Shown: positions 20,298 through 63,380 of the stretch, in pieces | How positions within the stretch are numbered: the first letter of the stretch is position 1 | Layout: the number at the start of each line of letters is the position of its first letter | DNA from: Sideroxydans sp. | GTDB lineage: Bacteria; Pseudomonadota; Gammaproteobacteria; Burkholderiales; Gallionellaceae | DNA: 64,000 bases | Direction: 5' to 3' | NCBI GenBank assembly: GCA_028710605.1 | Contig: JAQTTU010000002.1 | Location: 341,105 to 405,104, forward strand | Notes under the pieces: generated by a model | The model's input: only the letters and a program-made list of their open reading frames with translations | What the model was told of the DNA's origin: nothing | Database searches by the model: none | Made by a program: the position numbers and the translations under genes

Positions 20298-20345
20298 TGT
20301 AGGTCGGGCTTTAGCCCGACTTGTCGGGTTAAAACCCGACCTACA
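20298..20345. repeat. Palindromic repeat, family C (TGTAGGTCGGGCTTTAGCCCGAC)
   Basis: Two tandem hairpins (TCGGGCT/AGCCCGA and TCGGGTT/AACCCGA) lie inside TGTAGG...CCTACA ends. It sits between DUF484 and dapF. Other copies: 33425, 41504 and 63333. Confidence 0.9.
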
Positions 20346-33424: not shown

Positions 33425-33477
33425 TGTAGGTCGGGTTTCAACCCGACAAGTTGTGTCGGGATAAATCCCGACCTACA
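33425..33477. repeat. Palindromic repeat, family C
   Basis: TGTAGGTCGGGTTTCAACCCGAC, a TTGTG spacer, TCGGGATAAATCCCGA and CCTACA (two tandem hairpins). It lies between the convergent NapC and sensor kinase genes. Confidence 0.88.
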
Positions 33478-39044: not shown

Positions 39045-41438
39045 ATGGAAATTGAGTCTTTCAAAGTAGCGATTATCGGTGCCGGTCCGGGCGGTTTGTC
39101 GGCCGCCATGCGTGCGGCAGAGCTCGGGGTGTCCCACGTGTTGCTGGAAGGCTCTTCCCATTTGGCGAACACGATCCATCATTTCCAAAAGGGCAAACTG
39201 GTGATGGCGGAGCCGTCGCAGTTGCCTTTGCGCAGTGCGCTGTCTTTCGGTGCGGGTTCGCGCGAACACATTCTGCAACAGTGGCGCGATGAGGTGGCCG
39301 CCGGGGCTGTGAATGTGCGCGTCGATGCGAATGTGACGGGCATTGCGGGCGGGCGCGGCAATTTCCGTATTTCTCTGGCGAGCGGCGATACGGTTGCGGC
39401 GGAGTGCGTGGTGCTTGCCATCGGCGTGCAGGGAAATATTCTCAAGCTGGGGGTGCCGGGCGAGGATCTGCCCGGAGTGCAATACCAGTTGGACGATCCC
39501 GACGAGATCAGCAATGAAACCATCGTGGTGGTGGGCGCAGGCGATACGGGCATCGAGAATGCATTGGCATTGGCCGACAAGAATCGCGTCATCGTGATGA
39601 ACCGTCAGGATGAGTTTAGCGTCTGCAAGGAAGCCAACTTTGATCTGCTGATGGCGGCGGTGACCGAGGGCAGAATCGAAACCCGCGTCAGCACATTGAC
39701 CGAGCGAGTGGAGGCGCAGGAAACGGGAAATTACCCGCTGCTGTATGTCGCGCAAACTCCCCAGGGCCAGGAAAAATTTGAATGCCATCGCGTCATTGCC
39801 CGTCTCGGGGCGATGCCTCCGCGCAAGCTGGTGGAGAGCTTCGGCGTGAGTTTCCACAACGATGATTTGAGCGCGGTGCCGCGACTCTCCGAGCAATACG
39901 AATCCAACATTCCCGGTCTGTATGTCGTCGGCTCGCTCGCGGGCTATCCTCTGATAAAGCAGGCGCTCAACCAGGGCTACGAGGTCGTCGAACACATTCT
40001 GGGACGCGAGGTCGAGCCTGCGGATGAAGCTCTGCTGCGGGATAAGTTCGCGCGCGTGCGCAAGCCGGGTTCGGTGAAAGAAGGCCTTGCCATGGTCAAG
40101 GAAAATGCCGCGCTGTTCGAGTCGCTGAACTCGCTCCAGTTGCGCGAGCTGGTGCAGAACAGCCAGGTGTGGGATTTGGCTGCGGGCGAAATCGTTTTCA
40201 AACGCAACGATTACAGCAACAGTTTTTTTTCCATTCTGTCCGGTCGGGTGCGTATCGAGACTGAAAACAAGGATGGCGACCTGACTCACTTCACTTTATC
40301 TGCGGGCAATTTTTTCGGCGAGATGGGGTTGCTGTCCGGTCGTCGCAGATCCGGTACCGCCAGCGCGGACGGCGATTGCATTCTGCTGGAGACACCGCGC
40401 CGTTATATGCTCAGCCTGCTGAACTCGGCGCGGGGGGTGCAGCGCAAGCTGGACGAGGTGGCGCTGAAACGCATTGTATTGACGTATCTGGATGCCGGGC
40501 TGTCGGCCAGCGAGCTGGAGCATCTGGTGCAGGAAGCCAAACTCAAACGCTACTCGGTTGACGAAGTGTTGTTCAGCGAGGGAGACGAGGCGGATGGTTT
40601 GTACATGATACGTCGCGGCTCGGTGACGGTTTCCCGGCTGGTTGCGGGCAAGGAAGTTGTGTTGGCTTACGTGTCTGCGGGAAATTATGTGGGCGAAATG
40701 GCGCTGGTGTCTAACAACCTCCGTTCGGCCACGGTGAAAGCCGCTTCACCCACGGAAGTGGTGCTGCTGGAAGCCAACCGCGTGCGCTCCGTGCTTGAGC
40801 GCAACTCGTCCATTCGCGGCAAAGTCGATAGCCGCTATCTGGAGCGCGTGCATTCCGAAGAAATGAATCCGCACCACGAACACAGCAGCATGGTGAAGTT
40901 CCTGCTGGAACAGGGCGTGGGGGAAGCCACCGATTTTTTGCTGATCGACTATTCGCGCTGCATACGCTGCAACAACTGCGAAACAGCCTGCGCCAATGTG
41001 CATAACGGAACATCGCGCCTGAACCGGGAAGCGGGCGCGACTTTCGAATACATTCACCTGCCCGCTTCATGCCGCCACTGCGAACATCCGCACTGCATGA
41101 AAGATTGTCCGCCCGATGCCATCCACCGTTCGGTGAACGGCGAAGTGTTTATCAACGACAGTTGCATCGGCTGCGGCAATTGCCAGCGCAACTGCCCCTA
41201 CGACGTGATTCAGATGGCATCCGTATCGAATCATCCGAGATGCACATGGTGGCAAATGTTGCTGGGGAAGCCCGGCCATCCTGCCCCGAAGGAAAGCGGG
41301 AACGAGCAGAAAATAGCGGTGAAGTGCGATATGTGCAAAGAGATCATCGCGGGTCCCGCATGCGTCCGGCTGTGCCCGACGGGCGCGGCATTCCGCGTCA
41401 GCCCGGAAGTGTTTCTGGGTTACGTGAACCAATCCTGA
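39045..41438 (+). CDS. FAD/NAD(P) oxidoreductase fused to two cNMP-binding domains and a four-cluster ferredoxin domain
   Basis: 797 residues, no signal peptide. Residues 1-330: thioredoxin-reductase/YpdA-like flavoprotein with FAD motif VAIIGAGPGGLSAAM, NAD(P) motif VVVGAGDTGIENALAL and the C-terminal FAD motif IPGLYVVGSLAGYPL; the CxxC disulfide of true thioredoxin reductases is absent. Residues 345-465 and 500-605: two cyclic-nucleotide-binding folds, each with a phosphate-binding-cassette-like segment (FGEMGLLSGRRRSGTA; VGEMALVSNNLRSATV). Residues 635-797: DmsB/NrfC-like iron-sulfur region with sixteen Cys in four groups (CIRCNNCETAC, CRHCEHPHCMKDC, CIGCGNCQRNC, CDMCKEIIAGPACVRLC), predicting four [4Fe-4S] clusters. 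Likely moves electrons between NAD(P)H and a membrane partner under nucleotide control. First gene of a three-gene set. Confidence 0.9.
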   Translation: MEIESFKVAIIGAGPGGLSAAMRAAELGVSHVLLEGSSHLANTIHHFQKGKLVMAEPSQLPLRSALSFGAGSREHILQQWRDEVAAGAVNVRVDANVTGIAGGRGNFRISLASGDTVAAECVVLAIGVQGNILKLGVPGEDLPGVQYQLDDPDEISNETIVVVGAGDTGIENALALADKNRVIVMNRQDEFSVCKEANFDLLMAAVTEGRIETRVSTLTERVEAQETGNYPLLYVAQTPQGQEKFECHRVIARLGAMPPRKLVESFGVSFHNDDLSAVPRLSEQYESNIPGLYVVGSLAGYPLIKQALNQGYEVVEHILGREVEPADEALLRDKFARVRKPGSVKEGLAMVKENAALFESLNSLQLRELVQNSQVWDLAAGEIVFKRNDYSNSFFSILSGRVRIETENKDGDLTHFTLSAGNFFGEMGLLSGRRRSGTASADGDCILLETPRRYMLSLLNSARGVQRKLDEVALKRIVLTYLDAGLSASELEHLVQEAKLKRYSVDEVLFSEGDEADGLYMIRRGSVTVSRLVAGKEVVLAYVSAGNYVGEMALVSNNLRSATVKAASPTEVVLLEANRVRSVLERNSSIRGKVDSRYLERVHSEEMNPHHEHSSMVKFLLEQGVGEATDFLLIDYSRCIRCNNCETACANVHNGTSRLNREAGATFEYIHLPASCRHCEHPHCMKDCPPDAIHRSVNGEVFINDSCIGCGNCQRNCPYDVIQMASVSNHPRCTWWQMLLGKPGHPAPKESGNEQKIAVKCDMCKEIIAGPACVRLCPTGAAFRVSPEVFLGYVNQS

Positions 41439-41503
41439 GCAACGGGTGGCTATTTGAACCCGGGTTATCAATTGGACTATTGGGTGGCGCAAAATCAGGG
41501 TGT

Positions 41504-41550
41504 TGTAGGTCGGGTTTTAACCCGACATGTCGGGCTGAAGCCCGACCTGC
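41504..41550. repeat. Palindromic repeat, family C
   Basis: TGTAGGTCGGGTTTTAACCCGAC with a second TCGGGCT/AGCCCGA hairpin, ending CCTGC instead of CCTACA. It separates the flavoprotein gene from the membrane gene. Confidence 0.85.
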
Positions 41551-41586
41551 GTTCAAATTAACAGTCTGTGTTGAATCGAGGTAAAA

Positions 41587-42525
41587 ATGGATCTGGCGCA
41601 CCGCCCGAATATATTGAGATACAACCACGACCGCTATGTCAGGCTGGGTCTGTGGTTGGTGTTGCTGGCCGTTGCGGGCTATGTGCTGTTTGAGCCGGCG
41701 GCGACAGAACCCTACGGCGGCACGCCGGTGGGTTATGTGCTGGGTATTCTTTCATTATTGATCGTGTTGTTGCTGTTCTGGTACGGCATCTATAAACGCT
41801 GTCCGACTTCCGACCGCGACAGGCGGTTTGAAGAAAGAAGAACGCCCGAAGCGCAAGGCAAGGCGGATCGCAGAAACAAGTCTCCGGCGCAAAGCTGGCG
41901 TTACGGCCAGACCCTGCAAGGATGGCTCGCGTTGCACATCAATCTCGGCGCTGCGCTGATCGTACTGGCCACGCTGCATACCGGGTTCGAGTTCGGCTGG
42001 AATGTCCACACGCTGGGTTACGGCTTGATGCTGGTTGTGATTGCCAGCGGATTTTACGGGCTGTATGCCTACCTCAACTATCCGCGCCGGATTACCGACA
42101 ATTTGCAGGAAGACACGCTGGAAGGCTTGCTGCTCAAGATTGACGAGCTGGACGAGATGGCAAGAGTCAAGGCGCTTTATCTGGCCGACGAGGTGAACGA
42201 GCTGGTGCTCAACGCGCGGCAGGAGACAGTGATAGGCGGCAGCCTCATGCAGCAACTGAACTGGAAACAAGCGCCGTGCCCGACCCGAATCGCCGTCCGG
42301 CAGCTTCAAAAGCTGGGCAAAAAATACATCGCCGACGATCAGCCGAAATACATGCGCGATTTGTATTCGCTGATGCTGCGCAAACAAAGGCTGGTCGAAA
42401 GAGCGCGCAATGTCGTCAAATGTAAATCCCGGATGGATGCCTGGTTGTATCTGCATGTGCCCTTGTCGGCGGCCATGCTGGCGGCCTTGTCGGTGCATGT
42501 TTTATCCGTTTTATTTTATTGGTAG
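41587..42525 (+). CDS. Membrane protein, probable diheme cytochrome b
   Basis: 312 residues, five predicted membrane helices (about 20-40, 47-68, 113-136, 142-162, 286-310). Helix 3 holds His117 and His131 and helix 5 holds His290 and His304, both H-X13-H, the spacing by which two facing helices coordinate two b hemes across a membrane, as in NarI/FdnI-type subunits. Between helices 4 and 5 is a 115-residue Leu/Glu/Lys-rich cytoplasmic region. I do not recognise a named family. It sits between an Fe-S flavoprotein gene and a decaheme gene, ending 5 bp before the latter, so a quinone-reactive or transmembrane electron-transfer role is inferred. Confidence 0.82.
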   Translation: MDLAHRPNILRYNHDRYVRLGLWLVLLAVAGYVLFEPAATEPYGGTPVGYVLGILSLLIVLLLFWYGIYKRCPTSDRDRRFEERRTPEAQGKADRRNKSPAQSWRYGQTLQGWLALHINLGAALIVLATLHTGFEFGWNVHTLGYGLMLVVIASGFYGLYAYLNYPRRITDNLQEDTLEGLLLKIDELDEMARVKALYLADEVNELVLNARQETVIGGSLMQQLNWKQAPCPTRIAVRQLQKLGKKYIADDQPKYMRDLYSLMLRKQRLVERARNVVKCKSRMDAWLYLHVPLSAAMLAALSVHVLSVLFYW

Positions 42526-42530
42526 CGGCC

Positions 42531-44207
42531 ATGATCTCCTGCTTGCTGATTCACATTTCGCGCAATGCGCAAGGCATAGAGGTTCGCAAGGAAACCGTTG
42601 TTTCGGGCGCGACGCTTTCGGTTGGCCGGGGTGCCGAATGCGAGATCCATTTGCAGGATCATCAGGTGTATTTGCATCACGCGACGGTGAAGCGTTCCGA
42701 AGACGGGAAACTCTATCTGGAAAGCGAAAAAAATGCGGACATCAACATCAATGGCGCAATCGAACAGAGCATGGCGCTTTCGCCGGGCACGCGTGTTGAA
42801 ATAGGCCCGTATCTGCTCGAAGTCATTCCGCATTCGGGCGAACACGACATTGCCTTGTCCGTCGAACTGATGCTGTCACACCTGATTGAACAGGAAGCGG
42901 CAAAGAAACGCCGCAAGGGCGTGGCGTTAACGGTCGCAGCGCTGGGAATCAGCAAGCGCAAAATCAGTGCCGCATTGGCATTGCTCATCCTGTTTGTATT
43001 TCTGTTGATGCCGCTGCTGCCCCATTTTTTTCCGAAAATTGATCGCTGGCAATCCACTTCGCATACCAGCCTCGCCGCATCATGGAGTGCGGGCGACCTG
43101 TCGGGCGACCACGCCGTGTTCGGCGCACAATGCTCCGTCTGCCACCAGCGCGCTTTCCGCGAAGTCGGGGATGCCGTCTGCACCGGATGCCACAAAAATA
43201 TCTCCGGCGATACGCAAAACAATGCGGGCCATTTCAATATTCCAGACAAGATGCGCTGCACGCATTGCCACCAGGATCACAAAGGCGCGGACGGCCTGGC
43301 CATGCGCGGTTCCACCCGATGCGTGGCATGCCACGCCAAGCTCAAGAAGTGGAAGGCCGACACGCAGTACGCCGATGTATCGGACTTCGGTTCGGCGCAT
43401 CCCGAGTTCAATCTTGCCCCGGCGGGAGCGCCACGGACAGGCGCTAAAGAATTGGCGGTCGAACAGAACGGACTCAAGTTTCCCCACCAGCTTCACATGG
43501 CGAAAGAAGGCGTAGCCACCCTGCGCGGCGACATGGTGATGGTCTGTCAGGACTGCCACCATCTCGAAGAATCCGGCAGACATTTTGCCCCCGTAAAGAT
43601 GGCGCAGGACTGCCAGCAATCCGGTTGCCACCGCATCAAATTCAGCGCGCCGCTGGAAGGCAAAGTGCCGCACGGCTCGGTGAGCGAAGTGGCGCAATAC
43701 GTTAGGGAATATTTTTTTTACAAAATGTCGGGGCAGCCCCCGGCACGCTTCCCGGAATGCGGACAGGGCAAAGGCAGCGCGGCGAAAAAAATGCTGGATT
43801 GCGCGGATCAACTCACGCAGCAGACATTGGAATCCACCCTGTTAAATAAAAACAAAGTCTGTAGCGATTGCCACCAAATCACCAAAACGGGAGACACCGT
43901 TGCCGACTGGGAAGTTGCTCCGGTAAAAATCAGGCGGGACTGGTTCCGGTCTTCGGTTTTCTCGCATGCCAAACATAGCGCCGCAGAGTGCACCACATGC
44001 CATAACAAGTTGAGCTCGAAATTGAGCGCGGATGTCGCTATGCCCGGCATCAACATCTGCCGCGAGTGCCATACCGGCGACCGCAAAGTGAAGTACAAGA
44101 TTTCCAGCGGCTGTGCGACCTGCCACAAATTCCACGGCGGGGAAACGCATGTGTGGAAGAAGCGCGCGGGAAATTCTGTCACGCAGGAAATAGAACCCAC
44201 CAAATGA
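42531..44207 (+). CDS. FHA-domain / transmembrane / decaheme c-type cytochrome fusion
   Basis: 558 residues. Residues 1-100: forkhead-associated domain (LSVGRGAECEIHLQDHQVYLHHATV, with the Arg, Ser/His-type binding loop and GAxxxN-like INGAIEQS), facing the cytoplasm. One membrane helix at about 144-166. Residues 200-535: periplasmic heme domain with nine CXXCH motifs (CSVCH, CTGCH, CTHCH, CVACH, CQDCH, CSDCH, CTTCH, CRECH, CATCH) and one CX4CH (CQQSGCH, residues 361-367), ten predicted hemes. No signal peptidase site; the helix acts as signal-anchor. A phosphothreonine-binding domain on an electron-transfer protein implies control by a Ser/Thr kinase, none of which is in the window. Confidence 0.9.
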   Translation: MISCLLIHISRNAQGIEVRKETVVSGATLSVGRGAECEIHLQDHQVYLHHATVKRSEDGKLYLESEKNADININGAIEQSMALSPGTRVEIGPYLLEVIPHSGEHDIALSVELMLSHLIEQEAAKKRRKGVALTVAALGISKRKISAALALLILFVFLLMPLLPHFFPKIDRWQSTSHTSLAASWSAGDLSGDHAVFGAQCSVCHQRAFREVGDAVCTGCHKNISGDTQNNAGHFNIPDKMRCTHCHQDHKGADGLAMRGSTRCVACHAKLKKWKADTQYADVSDFGSAHPEFNLAPAGAPRTGAKELAVEQNGLKFPHQLHMAKEGVATLRGDMVMVCQDCHHLEESGRHFAPVKMAQDCQQSGCHRIKFSAPLEGKVPHGSVSEVAQYVREYFFYKMSGQPPARFPECGQGKGSAAKKMLDCADQLTQQTLESTLLNKNKVCSDCHQITKTGDTVADWEVAPVKIRRDWFRSSVFSHAKHSAAECTTCHNKLSSKLSADVAMPGINICRECHTGDRKVKYKISSGCATCHKFHGGETHVWKKRAGNSVTQEIEPTK

Positions 44208-44339: not shown

Positions 44340-44885
44340 TCACATTTTCGGCTTGGCGTGCGCCGGACGGAAGGCTTCGCATTGCGCCGCATCCGATTCC
44401 AGATACGCACCCTCTATCAGGTCGATGCAATAGGGAATCGCGGGGAACACCGCGTTCAGGCAATCGACTATCGCGGAAGGTTTGCCGGGCAGATTCACGA
44501 TTAAACTCTTGCCGCGCACGCCTGCGGTCTGCCGCGACAATATCGCGGTGGGCACGAATTTGAGCGAGGCCGCGCGCATCAATTCGCCGAAACCCGGCAA
44601 CATTTTTTCGCACACCGCTTCGGTGGCTTCCGGTGTCACATCGCGCAACGCCGGGCCGGTGCCGCCGGTGGTCACCACCAGCGAACAGCCTTCCACATCG
44701 CACAATTCGATCAGCGTTTTTTCGATCAGCGCCTGCTCGTCCGGGATCACCCGTGTTACCGCCTGCCATTCGCAAGTCAGCACGCGCGCGAACCACGCCC
44801 GCATCGCCGGGCCGCCTTTGTCTTCATATTCGCCGCTGCTGGCGCGGTCGGAAATGGTTATGAAACCGATTAGAGCTTTAGTCAT
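44340..44885 (-). CDS. mogA: Molybdopterin adenylyltransferase
   Basis: Adenylates molybdopterin before metal insertion by MoeA. 181 residues; MoCF motifs FITISDRASSGEYEDKGGPA, SLVVTTGGTGPALRDVTPEA and VNLPGKPSAIVDCLNAVFPA are typical of MogA. Last gene of the minus-strand Moco group; a pair of family-B repeats lies between it and moeA. Confidence 0.95.
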   Translation of the reverse strand: MTKALIGFITISDRASSGEYEDKGGPAMRAWFARVLTCEWQAVTRVIPDEQALIEKTLIELCDVEGCSLVVTTGGTGPALRDVTPEATEAVCEKMLPGFGELMRAASLKFVPTAILSRQTAGVRGKSLIVNLPGKPSAIVDCLNAVFPAIPYCIDLIEGAYLESDAAQCEAFRPAHAKPKM

Positions 44886-44935
44886 TTTTACCTTTTGAAA
44901 AATAATTTGCCACAGAGATCACAGCGAAGGATTTT

Positions 44936-45050
44936 CTCCCTTCTCCCGCAGGCGGGAGAAGGGCTGGGGATGAGGGTCTGTGCGATGCAACGAATCTTTT
45001 TACGACTCTGCAACCCTCACCCTAACCCTCTCCCGCCTGCGGGAGAGGGA
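44936..45050. repeat. Two inverted CTCTCCC-family repeats (family B) between moeA and mogA
   Basis: A CTCCCTTCTCCCGC/GCGGGAGAAGGG hairpin with GGGGATGAGGGT tail (44936-44977) faces an ACCCTCACCCTAACCCTCTC copy with CTCTCCCGCCTGCGGGAGAG hairpin (45012-45050). The pair forms a larger inverted repeat. Just upstream (44909) is a CCACAGAGATCACAG fragment. Confidence 0.85.
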
Positions 45051-45063
45051 ACGAAGAGCTACT

Positions 45064-46365
45064 TCACCATTCTCCTCCCGCCTCATTCTGATACGCCGTG
45101 CCATCCAGCAACTGCACTGTCACCATGCTGCCCGCCGCCAAGCCTTTGCAATCCGCAGGCACGATCATCAAGCCTTCCGCTTTGGACATGGAAGCCAGAA
45201 TGCCGCTGCCTTGCGCACCGGTCGAGGTCGCGGTGTAACCGCCTTCTTCCCGACCCAACATCACGCGCACGAATTCGGTACGGCTATGTTTGTGTTTCAC
45301 TTCATGCGTCAGCCGCGCTTCGATTGTGCGGCGATAGATGCGCGCGAAGCCCGTCATGCGGCGCAGCGCGGGCAGCACGAATTGCTCGAAGCACACCATG
45401 CTCGAAACCGGATTGCCGGGCAGTCCGAACACGCATGAATTTTCAGTCGTGCCGAACGCCATCGGATGCCCCGGCTTCATTTCCACGCGCCAGAATTTCA
45501 TCTGCACGCCCAAGGCTTCCAGTGTCGGGCGCACGTAGTCGTGCACGCCGACCGACGTGCCGCCGGAAACCAGCAGCACATCGAACTGCAAGCCTTGCTG
45601 CAAATAGCGGCGCAACTCATCGGGATCGTCGCGCGCGATGCCGAGCAACACCGGCTGCATGCCCAGCGCCTGCACTTGCGCCATCAGCGCGTAGCTGTTG
45701 GCATCGGGAATTTTGTTGGCATCGAACGGGTCGTGCAGCCCTTCCAGCTCGTCGCCGGTGGAAAGGATCGCCACGCGCGGCTGGCGAACCACTTGCACCG
45801 TGGCGCGCTTCACCATCGCCAGCATGCCCACCGCACCCGGCGTAAGCTCCGTGCCGGACGGCAACACCACCTCGCCCTCGCGCATGCCTTCGCCGCGCGG
45901 ACGGATGTCGTTGTTAATCTTCACGGCCACATTAATTTGTACTTTCTCGCGAAGCGAGACGTTTGCTCCCTCTCCCGCCGGGGGAGGGTTAGGGTGGGGG
46001 AAGCCTTCATCCGCCAACACATCTTGCGTGTCCTCCACGCGGATCACCGTATCCGCGCCCGGCGGCACCGGCGCGCCGGTCATGATGCGCGCGCACTGTC
46101 CGGCTTGCACCGTCTTGCGCGGCATGTCGCCCGCCTTGATGTCCTCGATGATTTCAAGCACGGCAGGCGCACCCGCCACATCCGCACTGCGCAAGGCAAA
46201 GCCGTCCATCGCCGACACGTCGTATGGCGGCTGGTCGCGGTTGGCGAGTATGTCTTGCGCCAACACGCGCCCCAATGAGTGTTCGAGCGCGACGCTTTCC
46301 ACACCCAGCAATTGCACCGAACGAAGAACGATTTCCTGCGCCGCGTTAACCGATAAATGTTCCAT
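45064..46365 (-). CDS. moeA: Molybdopterin molybdenumtransferase
   Basis: Inserts molybdate into adenylylated molybdopterin. 433 residues; domains: MoeA N-terminal (MEHLSVNAAQEIVL ... DRDQPPYDVSAMDGFALR region), MoCF-like core (ILSTGDEL, VSGGTSVGVHDYV, VFGLPGNPVSSMVCFEQFVLP in part) and C-terminal beta domain. Between VEDTQDVLADEG and REKVQINVAVK there is an extra FPHPNPPPAGEGANVSL coded by a family-B repeat (45966-46003), placed in a surface segment ahead of NDIRPRGEGMREGE. Function is probably retained. Confidence 0.94.
   Translation of the reverse strand: MEHLSVNAAQEIVLRSVQLLGVESVALEHSLGRVLAQDILANRDQPPYDVSAMDGFALRSADVAGAPAVLEIIEDIKAGDMPRKTVQAGQCARIMTGAPVPPGADTVIRVEDTQDVLADEGFPHPNPPPAGEGANVSLREKVQINVAVKINNDIRPRGEGMREGEVVLPSGTELTPGAVGMLAMVKRATVQVVRQPRVAILSTGDELEGLHDPFDANKIPDANSYALMAQVQALGMQPVLLGIARDDPDELRRYLQQGLQFDVLLVSGGTSVGVHDYVRPTLEALGVQMKFWRVEMKPGHPMAFGTTENSCVFGLPGNPVSSMVCFEQFVLPALRRMTGFARIYRRTIEARLTHEVKHKHSRTEFVRVMLGREEGGYTATSTGAQGSGILASMSKAEGLMIVPADCKGLAAGSMVTVQLLDGTAYQNEAGGEW
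45966..46003. repeat. CTCTCCC-family repeat (family B) inserted in frame inside moeA
   Basis: CTCCCTCTCCCGCCGGGGGA followed by GGGTTAGGGTGGGGGAAG; the same order as the intergenic copies 0.9 kb away, but reversed. It is translated as FPHPNPPPAGEG. Confidence 0.85.
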
Positions 46366-46416
46366 AGTTTTTCAGAATTCTTTTTCAAAAAATTAAATTC
46401 AAAACAGCCAACCTCT

Positions 46417-46489
46417 TGGAGATGCCCGTCAATAGGCGATCTCCGTAATGCGATTGATGGAGATGGCCGAATCTATTGGCTTGCGGGCT
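46417..46489. repeat. Dispersed repeat, family F
   Basis: GGAGATGCCCGTCAATAGGC at the left, GATGGAGATGGCCG and TTGGCTTGCGGGCT at the right; aligned with the 17190-17262 copy over its length. It fills most of the gap between mobA and moeA. Confidence 0.85.
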
Positions 46490-46500
46490 TATGCAGCATT

Positions 46501-47079
46501 TCAATTCCGCTGCGCTGCTGCCAAATCTTCCGGCGTATCCAGATCGAAAAAACTGCGCAGTTGCGGGTCGTATTCGCGCAGCTCATCTTCGCTCACATAA
46601 CGCACGTCCAGATTTTTCAGCACGCCGCGCAGGCTCTTGTCGCCCGCAGCCAGACTCGCGCGCATCGCATCCAAGGCACTGTTTGTGTAGAACGCGGCGA
46701 GCGGTTGCGCGTAGCCGCCTACCATCGGCACGACAGCTTGATGCGCGTCACGCAACGTGGCGAGTTGCTTCACAACTGCGTGCGACACAAACGGCATATC
46801 GCACGCCACCGCAAACACCCACGGCGTATCGGCTTGTGCCATCCCCGCAATCAACCCCGCCAGCGGCCCGATTGAATCCTGTTCATCGCAAACCTGCATC
46901 ACATCCACACCGCTGCGCGGTTGGCGCACGCTGACAATCACCTTCGGAAAAATTTGTTGCATGGTGGCGGTGACACGTTCCAGTAGCGTCGCTCCGTCCA
47001 GCACCAGCGCCGCCTTGTCCCGCCCCATGCGGCGCGAATCGCCGCCCGCCAGAATCAGCGCGGTGCAGTCGTCTAGCAT
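46501..47079 (-). CDS. mobA: Molybdenum cofactor guanylyltransferase
   Basis: Adds GMP to Mo-molybdopterin to form the MGD cofactor of DMSO-reductase family enzymes. 192 residues; nucleotidyltransferase motif LILAGGDSRRMGRDKAAL, VFAVACDMPFVSHAVVKQL and the C-terminal FFDLDTPEDLAAAQRN are diagnostic. Its presence implies bis-MGD enzymes elsewhere in the genome. Confidence 0.95.
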   Translation of the reverse strand: MLDDCTALILAGGDSRRMGRDKAALVLDGATLLERVTATMQQIFPKVIVSVRQPRSGVDVMQVCDEQDSIGPLAGLIAGMAQADTPWVFAVACDMPFVSHAVVKQLATLRDAHQAVVPMVGGYAQPLAAFYTNSALDAMRASLAAGDKSLRGVLKNLDVRYVSEDELREYDPQLRSFFDLDTPEDLAAAQRN

Positions 47080-47094
47080 GAGAACAACGCCAGT

Positions 47095-47154
47095 TGTAGG
47101 TGCGAATTCATTCGCACTAATCGCAATGCCAGTGCGAATAAATTCGCACCTACA
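47095..47154. repeat. Palindromic repeat, family D
   Basis: TGTAGGTGCGAATTCATTCGCAC, spacer, GTGCGAATAAATTCGCACCTACA. Lies between mobB and mobA. Confidence 0.92.
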
Positions 47155-47179
47155 ACTATTTCAAAAGCAGTTTTTGAAA

Positions 47180-47671
47180 TCATCGCGCTGCGTGTAGCAA
47201 AATGAAATCAACAATGCCGTTCACATCCTCCAGCGCAAAATGCGGCAACTGCGGATACACCTCATCCATGTCGCTGACCATGGCGATCAGCCCATCTTCA
47301 ATCGCGCAACGCGCGGGTTTGCCGCACTCGCGGCGCAGCACTTCGATCTTCGCGCCGGGCGCGTGCGAAAAACCTTCGGCCAACACCAACTCTGCTTCGC
47401 CCAAAAAACGCTGCGCAATTTGCTGCGGCTCGCGTTCCGTTTTGGCATCCGCCACCAGTTGCAGCGCATCGCGCGTGAGCAATACGCTCATCACCGCGCC
47501 CGCATCCTTGTAGCGGTAACTGTCCTTGCCCGGCGTGTCCAGTTCCACTTTGTGATGCGCGTGTTTGATGGTGGCGACCTTCACTCCGCGCACGCACAAT
47601 TCACGAATAAGCTTTTCCACCAGCGTGGTTTTACCCGCGCCCGAATGACCGACGATAGAGATGACCTTCAT
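47180..47671 (-). CDS. mobB: Molybdopterin-guanine dinucleotide biosynthesis adaptor (GTP-binding)
   Basis: 163 residues; P-loop VGHSGAGKTTLVEKLI near the N-terminus, then VATIKHAHHKVELDTPGKDSYRY, the MobB signature. It assists MobA. The start codon overlaps the higA stop (ATGA), so its translation is coupled to the antitoxin gene. Confidence 0.94.
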   Translation of the reverse strand: MKVISIVGHSGAGKTTLVEKLIRELCVRGVKVATIKHAHHKVELDTPGKDSYRYKDAGAVMSVLLTRDALQLVADAKTEREPQQIAQRFLGEAELVLAEGFSHAPGAKIEVLRRECGKPARCAIEDGLIAMVSDMDEVYPQLPHFALEDVNGIVDFILLHAAR

Positions 47672-48105
47672 TTTGGGGAAGCGGGAATAAAAACCGCCGG
47701 GCTGATGCCAAAAAACGTGCCCAACTTGCCCGCCAAGGTCGCGCTGATTTTTCTCTTGCCCGACAAGATTGCCGACAGATTACTTTGCGGCACGATGGTG
47801 GACAAGTCTTCCTGTTTCAAGCCGCGTGCCTCCATCAGAAAACGCAGAGCATCTTTGGGCGAGGCCTTCTCGATGGCGTAGTGCTCTTGCTCATAGTTGG
47901 CCACCATATCGCTCACCAAATCGAGCAAGCCTGCGAGCGGATGGTCTTCATCGTCGCCCGCGACATCCAGCAACGAATTCATCAGCGCCAACATGCGCTC
48001 GTAGCCCGCCACATCCTGGATGGGGCGCAGATGCGCGTTCGCATCAAATGCCTGCCAAGAGGTTTGAATGGCCCGAATGTCGAATTTACTTTGAGAGGTG
48101 CGCAT
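47668..48105 (-). CDS. higA: HigA-type antitoxin (HTH)
   Basis: 145 residues. The C-terminal half is a lambda-Cro/Xre helix-turn-helix (LRFLMEARGLKQEDLSTIVP, SNLSAILSGKRKISATLAGK) of the YddM/HigA type; the N-terminal 80 residues, with an acidic DVAGDDEDHPLAGLLDL segment, probably bind the toxin. It follows the toxin gene by 2 bp, the order usual for higBA. Its stop overlaps the mobB start. Confidence 0.93.
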   Translation of the reverse strand: MRTSQSKFDIRAIQTSWQAFDANAHLRPIQDVAGYERMLALMNSLLDVAGDDEDHPLAGLLDLVSDMVANYEQEHYAIEKASPKDALRFLMEARGLKQEDLSTIVPQSNLSAILSGKRKISATLAGKLGTFFGISPAVFIPASPK

Positions 48106-48107
48106 GA

Positions 48108-48410
48108 TTATCCTTTGCCTTTCCGGTAGAGCTTGTTCCAGTTATCGTATTCGCGGTGCGTCATCACTTTATGCACAAAAACCTTTTTGAACCGGTAGCG
48201 GACGATCACCACCAAGCGGTAGTTGTTGCCGCCTATATCGAAGATCGTAAAGGGAGGAACATAGTCTGCTGAGTTGAAAAATTCTCGTACATGATTGAAA
48301 TCCCTGAACTCGATATGCTCCACAACCGAGTGCCACTCACGCAACACGCTTTCCGCCTCTGGATGAATTTTCCAGAACTCGCGCAGCATTTTGATGGAGA
48401 TGATGTGCAT
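48108..48410 (-). CDS. higB: HigB-family mRNA interferase toxin
   Basis: 100 residues of RelE/HigB fold: SIKMLREFWKIHPEAESVLREWH, FNSADYVPPFTIFDIGGNNYRLVV and FVHKVMTHREYDNWNKLYRKGKG with the conserved C-terminal basic/His-Tyr region. It probably cleaves translated mRNA. Its ATG lies only 6 bp after the -10 box of a strong promoter, pointing to a leaderless message. Confidence 0.94.
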   Translation of the reverse strand: MHIISIKMLREFWKIHPEAESVLREWHSVVEHIEFRDFNHVREFFNSADYVPPFTIFDIGGNNYRLVVIVRYRFKKVFVHKVMTHREYDNWNKLYRKGKG

Positions 48411-48416
48411 GGCTTG

Positions 48417-48444
48417 AGTATATCGCTTTGATATATTTGGTCAA
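48417..48444 (-). promoter_or_regulatory. higBA promoter with an embedded palindromic operator
   Basis: On the minus strand TTGACC, a 16-bp spacer and TATACT precede higB. A TATATC-N5-GATATA inverted repeat (48419-48435) lies in the spacer and -10 box, a likely HigA binding site for autorepression. Confidence 0.75.
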
Positions 48445-48462
48445 GATAAAGACATCAACTGA

Positions 48463-48888
48463 CTATGGATGCGGTGTAACCCAAGCTTCGCCTTGCGGCG
48501 TGATTTCTTTTTTCCAGATCGGCACGCGCTGTTTCAGCTCGTCTATCAGCCAGCGGCAAGCGTCGAACGCGGCGGCGCGGTGTTCGGCGGCGGCGGCGAT
48601 GAACACGATGTTGTCGCCCGCGCGCACGGTGGTGACCCGGTGCACGATGCGCGCATCCAGCAGAGAAAATTTTGCGATAGCTTCGTTGCGCAGCTTGTTC
48701 ATTTCGGCCAGCGCCATGCTGCCGTAGGCTTCAAAGCTGATCTCGCTCACGTCGCGCCCTTCGGAAAAATCGCGCGCGCAGCCGAGAAAAGTGGCGATGC
48801 CGCCAATGCGTTTTGAGCTGGATTTCAGCGCGGCGATTTCTGCGTCTTGCGAGAAGTCAGCTTGCTGGATACGGACAGGTTCGCTCAT
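48463..48888 (-). CDS. moaE: Molybdopterin synthase catalytic subunit
   Basis: 141 residues from MSEPVRIQQADFSQ with GAGGAA upstream; the frame extends further 5' only because it reads through a repeat. MoaE blocks: GGIATFLGCARDFSEGRDV, FEAYGSMALAEMNKL, RIVHRVTTVRAGDNIVFIA and the Lys-containing VPIWKKEITPQGEAWV. It transfers sulfur from MoaD thiocarboxylate to cyclic pyranopterin. Confidence 0.95.
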   Translation of the reverse strand: MSEPVRIQQADFSQDAEIAALKSSSKRIGGIATFLGCARDFSEGRDVSEISFEAYGSMALAEMNKLRNEAIAKFSLLDARIVHRVTTVRAGDNIVFIAAAAEHRAAAFDACRWLIDELKQRVPIWKKEITPQGEAWVTPHP

Positions 48889-48924
48889 TTCAATTCCTCG
48901 TCGTTTATAACGTCGCGCGCAATG

Positions 48925-48978
48925 TGTAGGAGCGAGCTTGCTCGCGAAAACGCTTTCGCGAGCAAGCTCGCTCCTACA
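48925..48978. repeat. Palindromic repeat, family A
   Basis: TGTAGGAGCGAGCTTGCTCG arm and its complement around a GAAAACGCTTTC loop, between moaE and moaD. Confidence 0.92.
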
Positions 48979-48997
48979 ACGGCATCCTGTCCCATTT

Positions 48998-49237
48998 CTA
49001 GCCCCCCGAAAACTTCGCCATGAACGCGATCTCGTCGTTGTCGTGCAGCGCCATTTGCTTGTCGTGCACCTGGTTCTGGTTGACGGCGATGAAGCTGACG
49101 ATGCTGAATGCGCCGGGATGTTGCATGCCGAGGTGGACGATGACATCGTGCAGCGTCATGCCATCGACGAATTCTATTTGCATCTCGCGTTGCTGCACGC
49201 GGTCGGCCACCGGGCCGAAGAACAGGATGCGAATCAT
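48998..49237 (-). CDS. moaD: Molybdopterin synthase sulfur carrier subunit
   Basis: 79-residue ubiquitin-like protein, MIRILFFGPVADRV, ending in the required Gly-Gly (FMAKFSGG) that MoeB adenylates and that carries the thiocarboxylate. Confidence 0.95.
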   Translation of the reverse strand: MIRILFFGPVADRVQQREMQIEFVDGMTLHDVIVHLGMQHPGAFSIVSFIAVNQNQVHDKQMALHDNDEIAFMAKFSGG

Positions 49238-49257
49238 CCTAAATTCCCTCGCGGGTT

Positions 49258-49317
49258 TGCAGGTGCGAATTCATTCGCACGAATTTCACGTTTTGTGCGA
49301 ATGAATTCGCACCTACA
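49258..49317. repeat. Palindromic repeat, family D
   Basis: TGCAGGTGCGAATTCATTCGCAC and GTGCGAATGAATTCGCACCTACA with one base change in the left end. Lies between moaD and moaC. Confidence 0.9.
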
Positions 49318-49327
49318 AAATCAGAAC

Positions 49328-49828
49328 TCATTTTTCCTCCCCGCGTTTCCACACGCCGCTTTTCCCGCCGCGCTTTTCTTCCAGTTGCACACACTCGATG
49401 CGCATGCCTCTATCTACCGCTTTGCACATATCGTAAATGGTGAGCAGCGCCACGTTGGCCGCGCACAGCGCTTCCATTTCCACCCCGGTTTGCCCCACGC
49501 AACTGGCCGTGGTCACCACCTTGATGCCGACGCAACCCTGCGCGTCCGCCTCGTTGATTTCGCTGAACTCAACTTCCACGCCGGACAGCGCGATGGAATG
49601 GCACATCGGGATCATGTCCGGCGTGCGCTTGGCCGCCATCACGGCTGCGACATCGGCCACGGTCAACACATCGCCCTTGGCGATCTTTCCATCGCGTATG
49701 CGTTCCAGCGTGGCGGGCTGCATGCGCAACACACCGCTGGCGATAGCGACGCGCTGCGTGCTGGTTTTTTCCGAAACATCCACCATGCGCGCGCGGCCGG
49801 AGTCGGAGAAATGGGTCAGTTCATTCAT
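49328..49828 (-). CDS. moaC: Cyclic pyranopterin monophosphate synthase
   Basis: Completes the MoaA reaction to cPMP. 166 residues; signature blocks [53 protein letters not shown] and [19 protein letters not shown] are intact. First gene of the minus-strand Moco group. Confidence 0.96.
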
Positions 49829-63332: not shown

Positions 63333-63380
63333 TGTAGGTCGGGCTTTAGCCCGACGTGTCGGGTTAAAACCCGACCTACA
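63333..63380. repeat. Palindromic repeat, family C
   Basis: TGTAGGTCGGGCTTTAGCCCGAC, GTG spacer, then TCGGGTTAAAACCCGACCTACA; nearly identical to 20298-20345. Lies upstream of tatA and just downstream of the Mrp gene. Confidence 0.92.

Follow-up and report, generated by a model that had tools for sequence, protein, structure and literature searches.

A conserved three-gene unit predicted to export electrons from NAD(P)H in a relative of Gallionella

Three neighbouring genes of the same direction, coding for the proteins P1, P2 and P3, were confirmed in a stretch of 64,000 nucleotides from Sideroxydans sp. (the window), which is related to the iron bacterium Gallionella. On balance, the three products probably form an inner-membrane electron unit, which is fed by NAD(P)H, works outward and is gated by a ligand of the cAMP type; our confidence in this reading is moderate. 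The following features were assigned.

39045..41438, + strand: P1, 797 amino acids, NAD(P)H-type flavoprotein with two cNMP-binding domains and a four-cluster ferredoxin
39060..39977, + strand: flavin/pyridine-nucleotide domain of P1, residues 6-311, Pyr_redox_2/3
40314..40352, + strand: first cNMP pocket of P1, residues 424-436 (FGEMGLLSGRRRS)
40692..40727, + strand: second cNMP pocket of P1, residues 550-561 (GEMALVSNNLRS)
40935..41402, + strand: ferredoxin region of P1, residues 631-786, 16 invariant Cys, HycB/HydN/DmsB-like
41507..41548, no strand: inverted repeat in the gap from P1 to P2; members of its family recur in the window
41587..42525, + strand: P2, 312 amino acids, five helices, two WX3HX13H motifs and SGXXG
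41935..41979, + strand: His117 (41935-41937) to His131 (41977-41979) of P2, helix 3, His in 88/88 P2
42454..42498, + strand: His290 (42454-42456) to His304 (42496-42498) of P2, helix 5, His in 83/88 P2
42531..44207, + strand: P3, FHA at residues about 20-110, membrane helix 142-166 (model), decaheme domain 201-532
43131..44126, + strand: ten heme motifs of P3, nine CXXCH and one CX4CH

The distance from P1 to P2 is 148 bases in the window and less than 30 bases in some relatives (L106, L109). The inverted repeat between them is probably not involved in the function of the unit. For P3 a TTG start at 42519 is listed; judged by the aligned P3 family, the ATG downstream of it (42531) is the better fit. 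Seven neighbours were scanned. Upstream an SSF symporter and one ORF without match were found, downstream molybdenum-cofactor genes; neither a porin gene nor a cyclase or phosphodiesterase was detected among the seven. Some 6 kb upstream there is a gene of the tetraheme NapC type, and the 10-heme P3 is the sole multiheme cytochrome at the locus itself. Elsewhere, two small opposite-strand ORFs stand between P2 and P3 (L085), one genome (G200) holds a solitary second copy of P1 (L094), and the P1 of L032 and L108 are identical.

The conservation of the unit was investigated in a sample of 398 genomes of the phylum. P1 and close relatives of P2 occurred in an identical set of 15 genomes, and P3 was found downstream of P2 in each of them. 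Wherever both genes were present, P1 and P2 (76/76 loci) as well as P2 and P3 (81/81 loci) lay on the same strand, two contigs being counted twice in both numbers. The pairwise divergence of the three proteins correlated with 0.87-0.89, compared to a maximum of 0.145 after shuffling. Furthermore, P1 and P2 are naturally fused to a single protein in two genomes. On a positive-inside reading the end of P1 and the start of P2 would both be cytosolic, as a fusion needs. Because of the co-occurrence, the constant order, the two fusions and the correlated divergence, P1, P2 and P3 are regarded as one unit. On this point the preliminary description is supported; it had named a lack of co-occurrence outside this locus as a refutation, and the opposite was found.

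P2 is presumably a diheme b-type membrane protein. The model contains five long helices (residues 16-34, 47-71, 110-132, 140-173 and 253-311), and the two WX3HX13H motifs are formed by W113/H117/H131 and W286/H290/H304. Both motifs are present in 83 of 88 P2 rows and one in the remaining five, which are gapped at helix 5 and hence at His290 and His304. The two H-X13-H pairs described before lie on helices 3 and 5 and are conserved; a lack of conservation had been named as a second refutation. SGXXG corresponds to S154-G155-G158, with Ser at position 154 in 82/88. With Foldseek no PDB match to the model was obtained at E <= 0.001, and a profile search gave no match below 0.4; thus, the diheme fold rests on the motifs. 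The match to PF01794 (E 0.26) is below the cut-off, with agreeing motif spacing. P2 gave 8 Pfam and 2 NCBIfam hits at E <= 1, none of them to an NrfD or DmsC family. The suggested pairing with an NrfD or b-type subunit is thus imprecise; the motifs of P2 are those of an inner-membrane class described by He et al. (2017, PMC5566968, available text).

In the available text of the same study a quinone-active cytochrome b is proposed for this class (He et al. 2017, PMC5566968). P2 might accordingly exchange electrons with the quinone pool, so that P1 and P2 would pass electrons from NAD(P)H to quinone or from quinol to P3, as in the model for PCC3/PCC4. His141 at the start of helix 4, outside the four presumed ligands, is invariant in 88/88 P2 and would agree with this. 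However, the quinone site is only putative, and a quinone would be dispensable, given an NAD(P)H input encoded next to P2 or fused with it. We regard this branch as possible but rather unlikely.

For P1, the composition given in the preliminary description was found again in the domain matches. The closest NCBIfam model for the flavin domain is YpdA (TIGR04018), with a score below the cut-off of the model. CxxC is absent from residues 1-330 in 99/99 aligned P1; a thioredoxin reductase does not fit, as the redox CxxC beside the flavin is missing. Fer4 families match between residues 608 and 781, and PF13247 matches with E 2.3e-9. Of the 17 Cys in the C-terminal region, 16 do not vary in 99/99. 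No DNA-binding, kinase or catalytic output domain was among the best 25 of 34 Pfam hits.

In the first cNMP pocket Glu426 and Arg435 are kept in 99/99 P1; in the second, Glu551 is kept in 99/99 and Arg560 in 98/99. By comparison with CRP, we take these to be the residues of the phosphate-binding cassette, and ligand binding is predicted for both pockets. Some cNMP domains bind no ligand or something else. Hence, the domains could be mere structural spacers of an unregulated unit, and the FHA domain of P3, already partly degenerate in look, points in the same direction. This explanation is unlikely, since Glu and Arg are essentially invariant in both domains, beyond the need of a spacer.

FHA domain, single membrane helix and ten heme motifs were likewise verified for P3 by Pfam, model and motif count. 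Ten motifs are present in 80 of 82 aligned rows and seven in the other two. The FHA match of the window has an E of 2e-6 (Pfam), and the domain was found in 43/48 P3. In residues 1-110 the mean pLDDT exceeds 90 in every block, and with Foldseek this region resembles the FHA domains of GarA and OdhI; the fold is therefore considered real. FHA domains bind phosphothreonine with Arg, Ser and Asn. At these positions Arg33 is found in 76 and Asn74 in 57 of 82 rows, but Ser at position 47 in just 5; the window has Tyr there, and 6 rows are gapped. From the two signal inputs proposed before, the cyclic nucleotide is supported by the kept pocket residues, while phosphorylation is doubtful, because most P3 have another residue in place of the usual binding Ser and the region is missing from six rows. 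Nine His outside the heme motifs are kept in 80-82 of 82 rows. A tenth, H227, is kept in more than 90% of 48 rows and of 15 rows, and misses the cut-off, set at 60 His, when 82 rows are aligned. With nearly one spare His per heme, P3 would be a wire with no open catalytic site.

The gene unit, its domains, the conserved residues, the fusions and the link to a larger locus in relatives are shown by the data. For the favoured reading, a gated outward unit, we infer how the hemes are bound and paired, which path and direction the electrons take, how the flow is gated and what accepts it. Cytosolic NAD(P)H would reduce the FAD of P1, from which electrons would move along four [4Fe-4S] clusters and reach two b hemes that span the membrane within P2. 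His117 and His290 would hold the heme on the cytosolic side, His131 and His304 the one on the periplasmic side. The ten hemes of P3, anchored by one helix, would accept the electrons. Binding of a cyclic nucleotide, most likely cAMP, would open or close the step from flavin to ferredoxin, since the cNMP domains stand between these two in sequence. The FHA domain may serve mainly for docking or as a structural element. P3 would deliver in many relatives to an outer-membrane module (P4-P6), and in Gallionella-type and Magnetococcales loci to periplasmic cytochromes, with a cytochrome c''-like protein as candidate.

The preliminary description had suggested that the unit could drive or tap reverse electron flow; electrons would then run from periplasmic cytochromes reduced by Fe(II) to NAD(P)+. 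The window and a record named Gallionella sp. (G115) fall into one family, and every redox part is in principle reversible. However, electrons moving inward would have to overcome both the membrane potential and an uphill step to about -320 mV, with no visible coupling to protons or a quinone, and on these bioenergetic grounds the outward direction is expected. In addition, records named Lysobacter, Solimonas and Alcanivorax contain P1-P2-P3. In Duganella and Limnobacter P1 was found together with P4-P7, P2-P3 being beyond the fetched stretch. We know of no iron oxidisers in these five genera. The suggestion is thus unsupported and very improbable.

In many relatives the unit is part of a larger locus that also encodes a barrel-like protein (P5), a strongly conserved decaheme-LVIVD protein (P6) and an HbpS-like protein. 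P6 was detected in 10/398 genomes, all within the 15 with the core unit; a search of the window's own genome did not find it. The module P4-P6 was not found in Gallionella-type and Magnetococcales loci. At L038/L039 P3 is accompanied by two further multiheme cytochromes, and in several relatives a cytochrome c''-like protein is encoded beside the unit. Some neighbours point to a link with cAMP. A phosphodiesterase-like gene, assigned from one scanned member that matched the SpdA and CpdA models below their cut-offs, lies at most 220 bases from P3 in 7 of 8 loci having such a gene. A CHASE2-cyclase, also assigned from one member, is at most 30 bases from P1 in 3 of 8 loci with a cyclase and 1.5-4 kb away in the other 5. 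Both are minority neighbours; the window's genome has seven class III cyclase matches. That P1-P2-P3 signal the periplasmic redox state inward, with the cNMP and FHA domains as outputs, is most improbable: both cytosolic parts carry signal domains and the FHA fold is near GarA/OdhI, but the Pfam hits (for P1 the best 25 of 34) include no catalytic output or DNA-binding domain, and the unit is associated with the barrel-decaheme module in relatives.

The wider reading of the gated outward unit is tentative: a widespread, cyclic-nucleotide-gated export from NAD(P)H to the exterior, with outer-membrane barrel, decaheme-LVIVD and HbpS-like protein in its full form, and the Gallionella form as its inner half only. 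If true, many bacteria not known for metal respiration, the records named Lysobacter, Solimonas and Alcanivorax included, would hold an NAD(P)H-fed outlet whose electron path itself contains a second-messenger switch, and cAMP-type signalling would be tied directly to redox balance. To our knowledge, this would be the first conduit of the respiratory type in which a second messenger, bound directly to the electron-input subunit, acts as the switch. The PCC3/PCC4 membrane-protein class would be extended from predicted electron uptake to export.

NAD(P)H oxidases and ferric reductases (PF01794) have a cytosolic NAD(P)H flavin and outward flow. P1-P2-P3 would work alike, but an Fe-S relay and a decaheme replace the direct flavin contact. 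The parts of P1 resemble flavoproteins of the YpdA/TrxR type and cNMP domains of the CRP/PKA type; in contrast to these, a four-cluster ferredoxin is fused, CxxC is absent and no DNA-binding or kinase match was obtained. For the ferric reductase type, helices 3 and 5 are given as the site of two b hemes (PMC5566968).

As far as the available texts describe PCC3 (PMC5566968, PMC10734462), its membrane protein has the motifs of P2. The PCC3 loci L100-L103 showed weak matches to the P2 profile and both WX3HX13H motifs. Their cytochromes are far larger: each of the four loci has one of 21 or 24 hemes, and three have a further one of 8 to 34 hemes. No flavin-cNMP-ferredoxin fusion was seen in L100-L103; L102 encodes an Fe-S protein of 449 amino acids with a partial match to P1 (136 bits).

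PCC4 is described, in the available text, with a five-helix inner-membrane protein bearing WX3HX13H on helices 3 and 5 and SGXXG on helix 4, a porin and 4-, 5- and 10-heme cytochromes (He et al. 2017, PMC5566968). In Subgroup II an Fe-S gene (PF13247) is upstream of the membrane-protein gene, and in one species both were annotated as one gene, which in the authors' view might be divided into two (PMC5566968). P1 and P2 share the helices, the motifs and the upstream PF13247 gene, whereas the window unit has no porin among its seven neighbours and no 4- and 5-heme cytochromes at the locus. FHA, flavoprotein fusion and cyclic-nucleotide domain, found in P1-P3, are not named for PCC4 there; 'fha' and 'cyclic' occur 0 times each in the main text (PMC5566968). 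L099, taken as a PCC4 relative, has an Fe-S protein with three cNMP stretches and no flavin match, and a separate NAD-binding/Fer2 protein upstream.

The earlier statement that no system of this composition is described thus needs restriction, as PCC4 has a similar membrane protein, Fe-S protein and 10-heme cytochrome, and an FHA-named decaheme was tabulated in 2023. In the Gallionellaceae pangenome a 'Forkhead-associated protein' (cluster 403) with 10 hemes is listed for 27 of 87 FeOB genomes (2023, PMC10734462). It is filed under 'Other'; the main text uses the word a single time and leaves the neighbours of the protein undescribed (PMC10734462). By name and heme count, cluster 403 is probably P3. 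If our reading is true, this decaheme of 27/87 iron-oxidiser genomes, undiscussed in the available text of that study (PMC10734462), gains a place.

Open reading frames and domain scans confirmed the positions and products given in the preliminary description for the three genes, called P1, P2 and P3 here and together the core. The following features of the window are referred to:

39045-41438, plus strand: P1, flavoprotein with two cNMP-binding domains and a 16-Cys ferredoxin region, 797 aa
41587-42525, plus strand: P2, five-helix, presumably diheme b membrane protein
42531-44207, plus strand: P3, protein with FHA domain, membrane helix and decaheme part
44340-49828, minus strand: molybdenum-cofactor genes (MoCF_biosynth, MoeA, MobA-like, MobB, MoaC), directly after P3
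32782-33390: NapC/NirT-type cytochrome gene, about 6 kb upstream of P1
35115-35168, 44226-44289, 47098-47151, 49261-49314, 60746-60794: REP-like hairpin (GTGCGAATGAATTCGCACCT and complement)
20301-20323, 33428-33450, 41507-41548, 63336-63358: second palindromic repeat family (around GTCGGGCTGAAGCCCGAC)

P1 starts with a pyridine-nucleotide flavoprotein part (residues 6-311), followed by the two cNMP-binding domains and the ferredoxin region. Its NCBIfam matches were all below the model cut-offs, with YpdA as top match of the flavin part (4.3e-31), CRP as top match of the second cNMP domain (8.2e-24) and AegA, HydN, ArrB and DmsB-like for the ferredoxin part. With P2 only sub-threshold Pfam matches were obtained, including DUF4405, b561 and ferric reductase. 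An NrfD/DmsC-type partner for the ferredoxin, as considered in the preliminary description, was rejected, since P2 matched no such family in Pfam or NCBIfam. P3 combines an FHA domain with c7/c3-type heme families and carries ten heme motifs, nine CXXCH and one CX4CH. Genes for a sodium:solute symporter and for tRNA-Arg were found upstream, and there is no obvious partner of the core among the scanned neighbours in the window. The REP-like hairpin GTGCGAATGAATTCGCACCT gave 13 matches with up to three mismatches at five places (0.01 expected). The palindrome around GTCGGGCTGAAGCCCGAC was matched five times, at four different places, against an expectation of none; one copy (41507-41548) is located between P1 and P2.

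When 200 genomes of the order were searched, P2 was matched in 15 of them including the own genome, and P3 adjoins P2 in all 14 others. P1 could be located in ten of these 14, three times in the first stretches and seven times in longer ones; one of the ten is truncated by the contig end. For three further genomes (G174, G051, G096) the contig or examined stretch stops short of the site of P1 in relatives. In the remaining genome (G003) P1 was not found in two overlapping stretches, and its locus L207 contains P2, P3 and a partial P4 only. The assumption that P1 is mostly missing from P2-P3 loci was therefore rejected as an artefact of short flanks, because the longer stretches reveal it. Seven of the eight longer stretches show the order P2-P3-P4-P5-P6-P7-P1 (beta-type loci), in which P4 to P7 encode an HbpS-like, a barrel-like, a decaheme-LVIVD and a c554-like protein.

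The same association was seen in a phylum sample of 398 genomes, the own genome included. P1 was detected in 15 genomes (E <= 1e-100) and P2 in 22 (E <= 1e-8). Those 15 P2 genomes with E < 1e-70 are exactly the 15 P1 genomes, and in each of them (14 relatives and the window) P3 lies downstream of P2 on the same strand. Thus, the three genes, described as one conduit from the window alone, do occur together elsewhere: P1, a close P2 and P3 were found jointly in 15 of the 398 genomes, the own genome being one of these. Among the weak P2 matches, five of seven were examined (G239 and G392 were left out); four loci resemble PCC3 and one PCC4, gene clusters of He et al. 2017 (PMC5566968). In one genome (G200) a second, solitary copy of P1 (L094) was observed, with no P2-P3 within the examined stretch.

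In a collection of named genomes at least 430 relatives of P1 were confirmed, of which the best 80 were kept. Among these best 80 of at least 430, P2 is located downstream of P1 in 59 and all three genes are present in 53. In the six loci with P2 and without P3, the sequence stops no more than 850 bases from P1. Of the 21 loci without P2, 18 have P7 upstream in the same direction and 16 of these also P6, which is the order of beta-type loci; of the three without P7, L118 and L146 border a contig end, and L150 is a genuine exception within the examined sequence. Names of organisms were used as labels only, because several environmental MAGs bear record titles (Bordetella parapertussis, Klebsiella pneumoniae, Mycobacteriaceae, Thermoflexus) that are hardly plausible as origin of their contigs.

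Both locus collections were pooled. They overlap (identical P1 in L032/L108 and in L084/L105; L037 and L200 are one contig; L123 is also counted among the overlaps), so the pooled numbers count some genomes twice; 96 of 98 P1 are distinct. P2 and P3 are on one strand in all 81 pooled loci holding both, the named part being the best 80 of at least 430, and their gap is 250 bases or less in 79. The other two gaps are 578 and 798 bases, the latter (L085) with two small ORFs on the opposite strand. P1 and P2 share the strand in 76 of 76 pooled loci, including three fused loci from two genomes. Furthermore, the pairwise divergences of the three proteins are correlated over 69 rows (P1-P2 0.87, P1-P3 0.89, P2-P3 0.87; maximum of shuffled data 0.145).

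The presumed ligand and pocket residues are almost invariant. All 16 cysteines of the P1 ferredoxin are invariant in 99 aligned P1, and the CxxC motif is absent from the flavin part in all 99. In the cNMP pockets Glu426, Arg435 and Glu551 are invariant and Arg560 is kept in 98 of 99. Conservation of the two P2 histidine pairs, on which the proposed diheme assignment depended, could be confirmed: Trp113, His117, His131, His141, Gly155 and Gly158 are invariant in 88 rows, and 83 rows retain Trp286, His290 and His304, the other five having a gap there. The P2 model, calculated with 47 of 60 sequences (window and 59 named), contains five long helices (mean pLDDT 87.9, pTM 0.81) and gave no match at E <= 0.001 in PDB or BFVD with Foldseek. 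Helix 5 (253-311) is far longer than a membrane span, and shorter helices are found within 178-247. By the positive-inside rule, we read the N-terminus, the 2-3 loop and the segment between helices 4 and 5 as cytosolic; this topology would place His117 and His290 on the cytosolic side and His131 and His304 on the periplasmic side.

All ten motif histidines of P3 are kept in 80-82 of 82 rows, and so are the non-motif residues H194, H250, H290, H319, H322, H381, H479, H482 and H535. A tenth, H227, is conserved to more than 90% in alignments of 48 and of 15 rows and is below the cut-off of 60 in the 82-row alignment. Nearly one non-motif histidine per heme would fit a wire with bis-His ligation. 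The P3 model (48 of 54 sequences, window and 53; mean pLDDT 79.3, pTM 0.57) has a helix at 142-166 and a less certain heme part, for which the top solved match in a sequence search was 3ov0, a cytochrome c family protein (E 6e-14).

Two signal inputs, cyclic nucleotides and protein phosphorylation, had been suggested. For the second, the FHA fold of P3 is modelled confidently and matches GarA and OdhI, and Pfam FHA was matched in 43 of 48 P3. The Arg, Ser and Asn residues of FHA domains bind phosphothreonine. In 82 rows, six of them gapped in this region, Arg33 is kept in 76 and Asn74 in 57, but Ser at position 47, which is Tyr in the window, in only five. In all five P3 of genus g3 (L040-L044) the start lies after the FHA domain, and the domain is likewise missing in the alignment for L045 from another family. 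The fold stands, and phosphorylation as a firm input was rejected because the usual serine is lost in most rows.

Regarding cyclic nucleotides, two gene families were considered in addition to the conserved pockets of P1. A phosphodiesterase-like family (one member scanned) matched the SpdA and CpdA models below cut-off. This gene is at most 220 bases from P3 in seven of the eight loci having the family, all in genomes of families f84 and f85 outside the class of the window. For a CHASE2-cyclase family, of which one member was scanned, the distance to P1 is at most 30 bases in three of its eight loci and 1.5-4 kb in the other five. With seven class III cyclase matches in the own genome, the presence of a cyclase close to a gene may carry little weight. 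As minority neighbours, these genes point to cAMP and are no proof. On contig C15 of the own genome (275856-298262) a class III cyclase, an FHA match and a DUF1924 cytochrome were observed within about 22 kb. In the Gallionella-type locus L032, the gene after P3 (6092-6916) encodes a metallophosphatase (YaeI-like, below cut-off) whose family differs from that adjoining P3 in the f84 and f85 genomes.

The neighbouring genes were clustered for 114 loci (34 and 80, some overlapping), limited by flank length and gene calling. The gene caller, which was home-made, missed P3 of L098 (recovered by ORF search) and placed P1 of L124 on the wrong strand, so the counts are lower bounds: P1 at least 92, P2 83, P3 74, P5 60, P4 58, P6 55 and P7 26. 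P4 (one scanned) is HbpS-like (PF03928, 2.1e-26). Of two scanned P5, one had weak barrel matches only and that of L133 no Pfam match at E <= 0.01. In 58 of 60 cases P5 ends with Tyr or Phe, a feature of outer-membrane barrels. P6 (one scanned) contains LVIVD repeats and c7/c3 matches, with ten CXXCH motifs counted on the alignment; one example is the large decaheme protein at L107 (3837-7655). The mean column identity of 66% over seven P6 is high for a wire and hints at an enzyme instead. P7 (one scanned) is c554-like. The order P1-P2-P3-P4-P5-P6 is found in L129 (titled Lysobacter) and many other loci.

P6 was detected in 10 of the 398 genomes, every one among the 15 core genomes, and nowhere in this sample without the core. 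In five core genomes, the own genome among them, it was not found; the core can thus occur by itself. Within the best 80 of at least 430 named loci, P4-P6 genes are present in 54 and absent in 12 whose sequence continues for over 6 kb downstream of P1, 14 being undecidable. Eight of the 12 (L104-L106, L108, L109, L111, L122, L183) are titled Gallionella, Gallionellales, Gallionellaceae or Magnetococcales. The others are L145 and L160, which have a P7-like gene inside the stretch, L148, a beta-type locus with P7 and a short upstream part, and L139.

A DUF1924 monoheme cytochrome is located 96 to 1365 bases from the unit in 11 loci (nine distinct); those from named genomes carry the titles Gallionella, Gallionellaceae, Magnetococcales or Methylophilaceae. 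For one of these cytochromes, the closest solved structures were cytochrome c'' (1e8e, 6.6e-29) and SHP (1dw0, 3.2e-11). None was seen beside the unit of the window; two are present elsewhere in its genome.

The likeliest role of the unit is an electron outlet opened or closed by cyclic nucleotide. It resembles NADPH oxidases in having an NAD(P)H module, fused to the membrane protein or encoded next to it, to which a four-cluster relay is joined, and in the presumed ligands on helices 3 and 5. NADPH oxidases send electrons outward. Starting from NAD(P)H at about -320 mV, electrons would run downhill on their way outward and be aided by the membrane potential. Reverse electron flow, which the preliminary description proposed that the unit could drive, was rejected on bioenergetic grounds, as electrons moving inward to NAD+ would have to work against both the potential difference and the membrane potential. 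As an outlet, the full form would deliver electrons to the outer membrane and the Gallionella form to periplasmic cytochromes.

The claim that no system of such composition is described holds in part. No paper joining these parts was found in searches of the open-licence PMC literature. A 10-heme "Forkhead-associated protein" is listed without comment for 27 of 87 FeOB in the Gallionellaceae pangenome paper (PMC10734462). The membrane-protein class and PCC4, on the other hand, are known. In He et al. 2017 (PMC5566968), a class with two WX3HX13H motifs and SGXXG was described and compared with ferric reductase and cytochrome b, together with PCC3 and PCC4; in PCC4 Subgroup II an Fe-S gene is located upstream of this membrane protein. 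P2 has the motifs of the class in common. The locus of the window was not filed as PCC4, since there is no porin among its scanned neighbours and 4- and 5-heme cytochromes are missing. In L038 and L039, P1-P2-P3 precede two multiheme cytochromes and another protein of about 520 aa (that of L038, 528 aa, without Pfam match at E <= 0.01), and we read a gene nearby as NADP-glutamate dehydrogenase. This cluster is an intermediate between the P1-P2-P3 unit and PCC4; members of its neighbour families were also observed in L145. The word "cyclic" does not occur in the main text of He et al. In L099 (3790-5544), an apparent relative of PCC4, an Fe-S protein with three cNMP-binding stretches is preceded by a separate NAD-binding/Fer2 protein. 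Thus, cNMP control may extend to PCC4.
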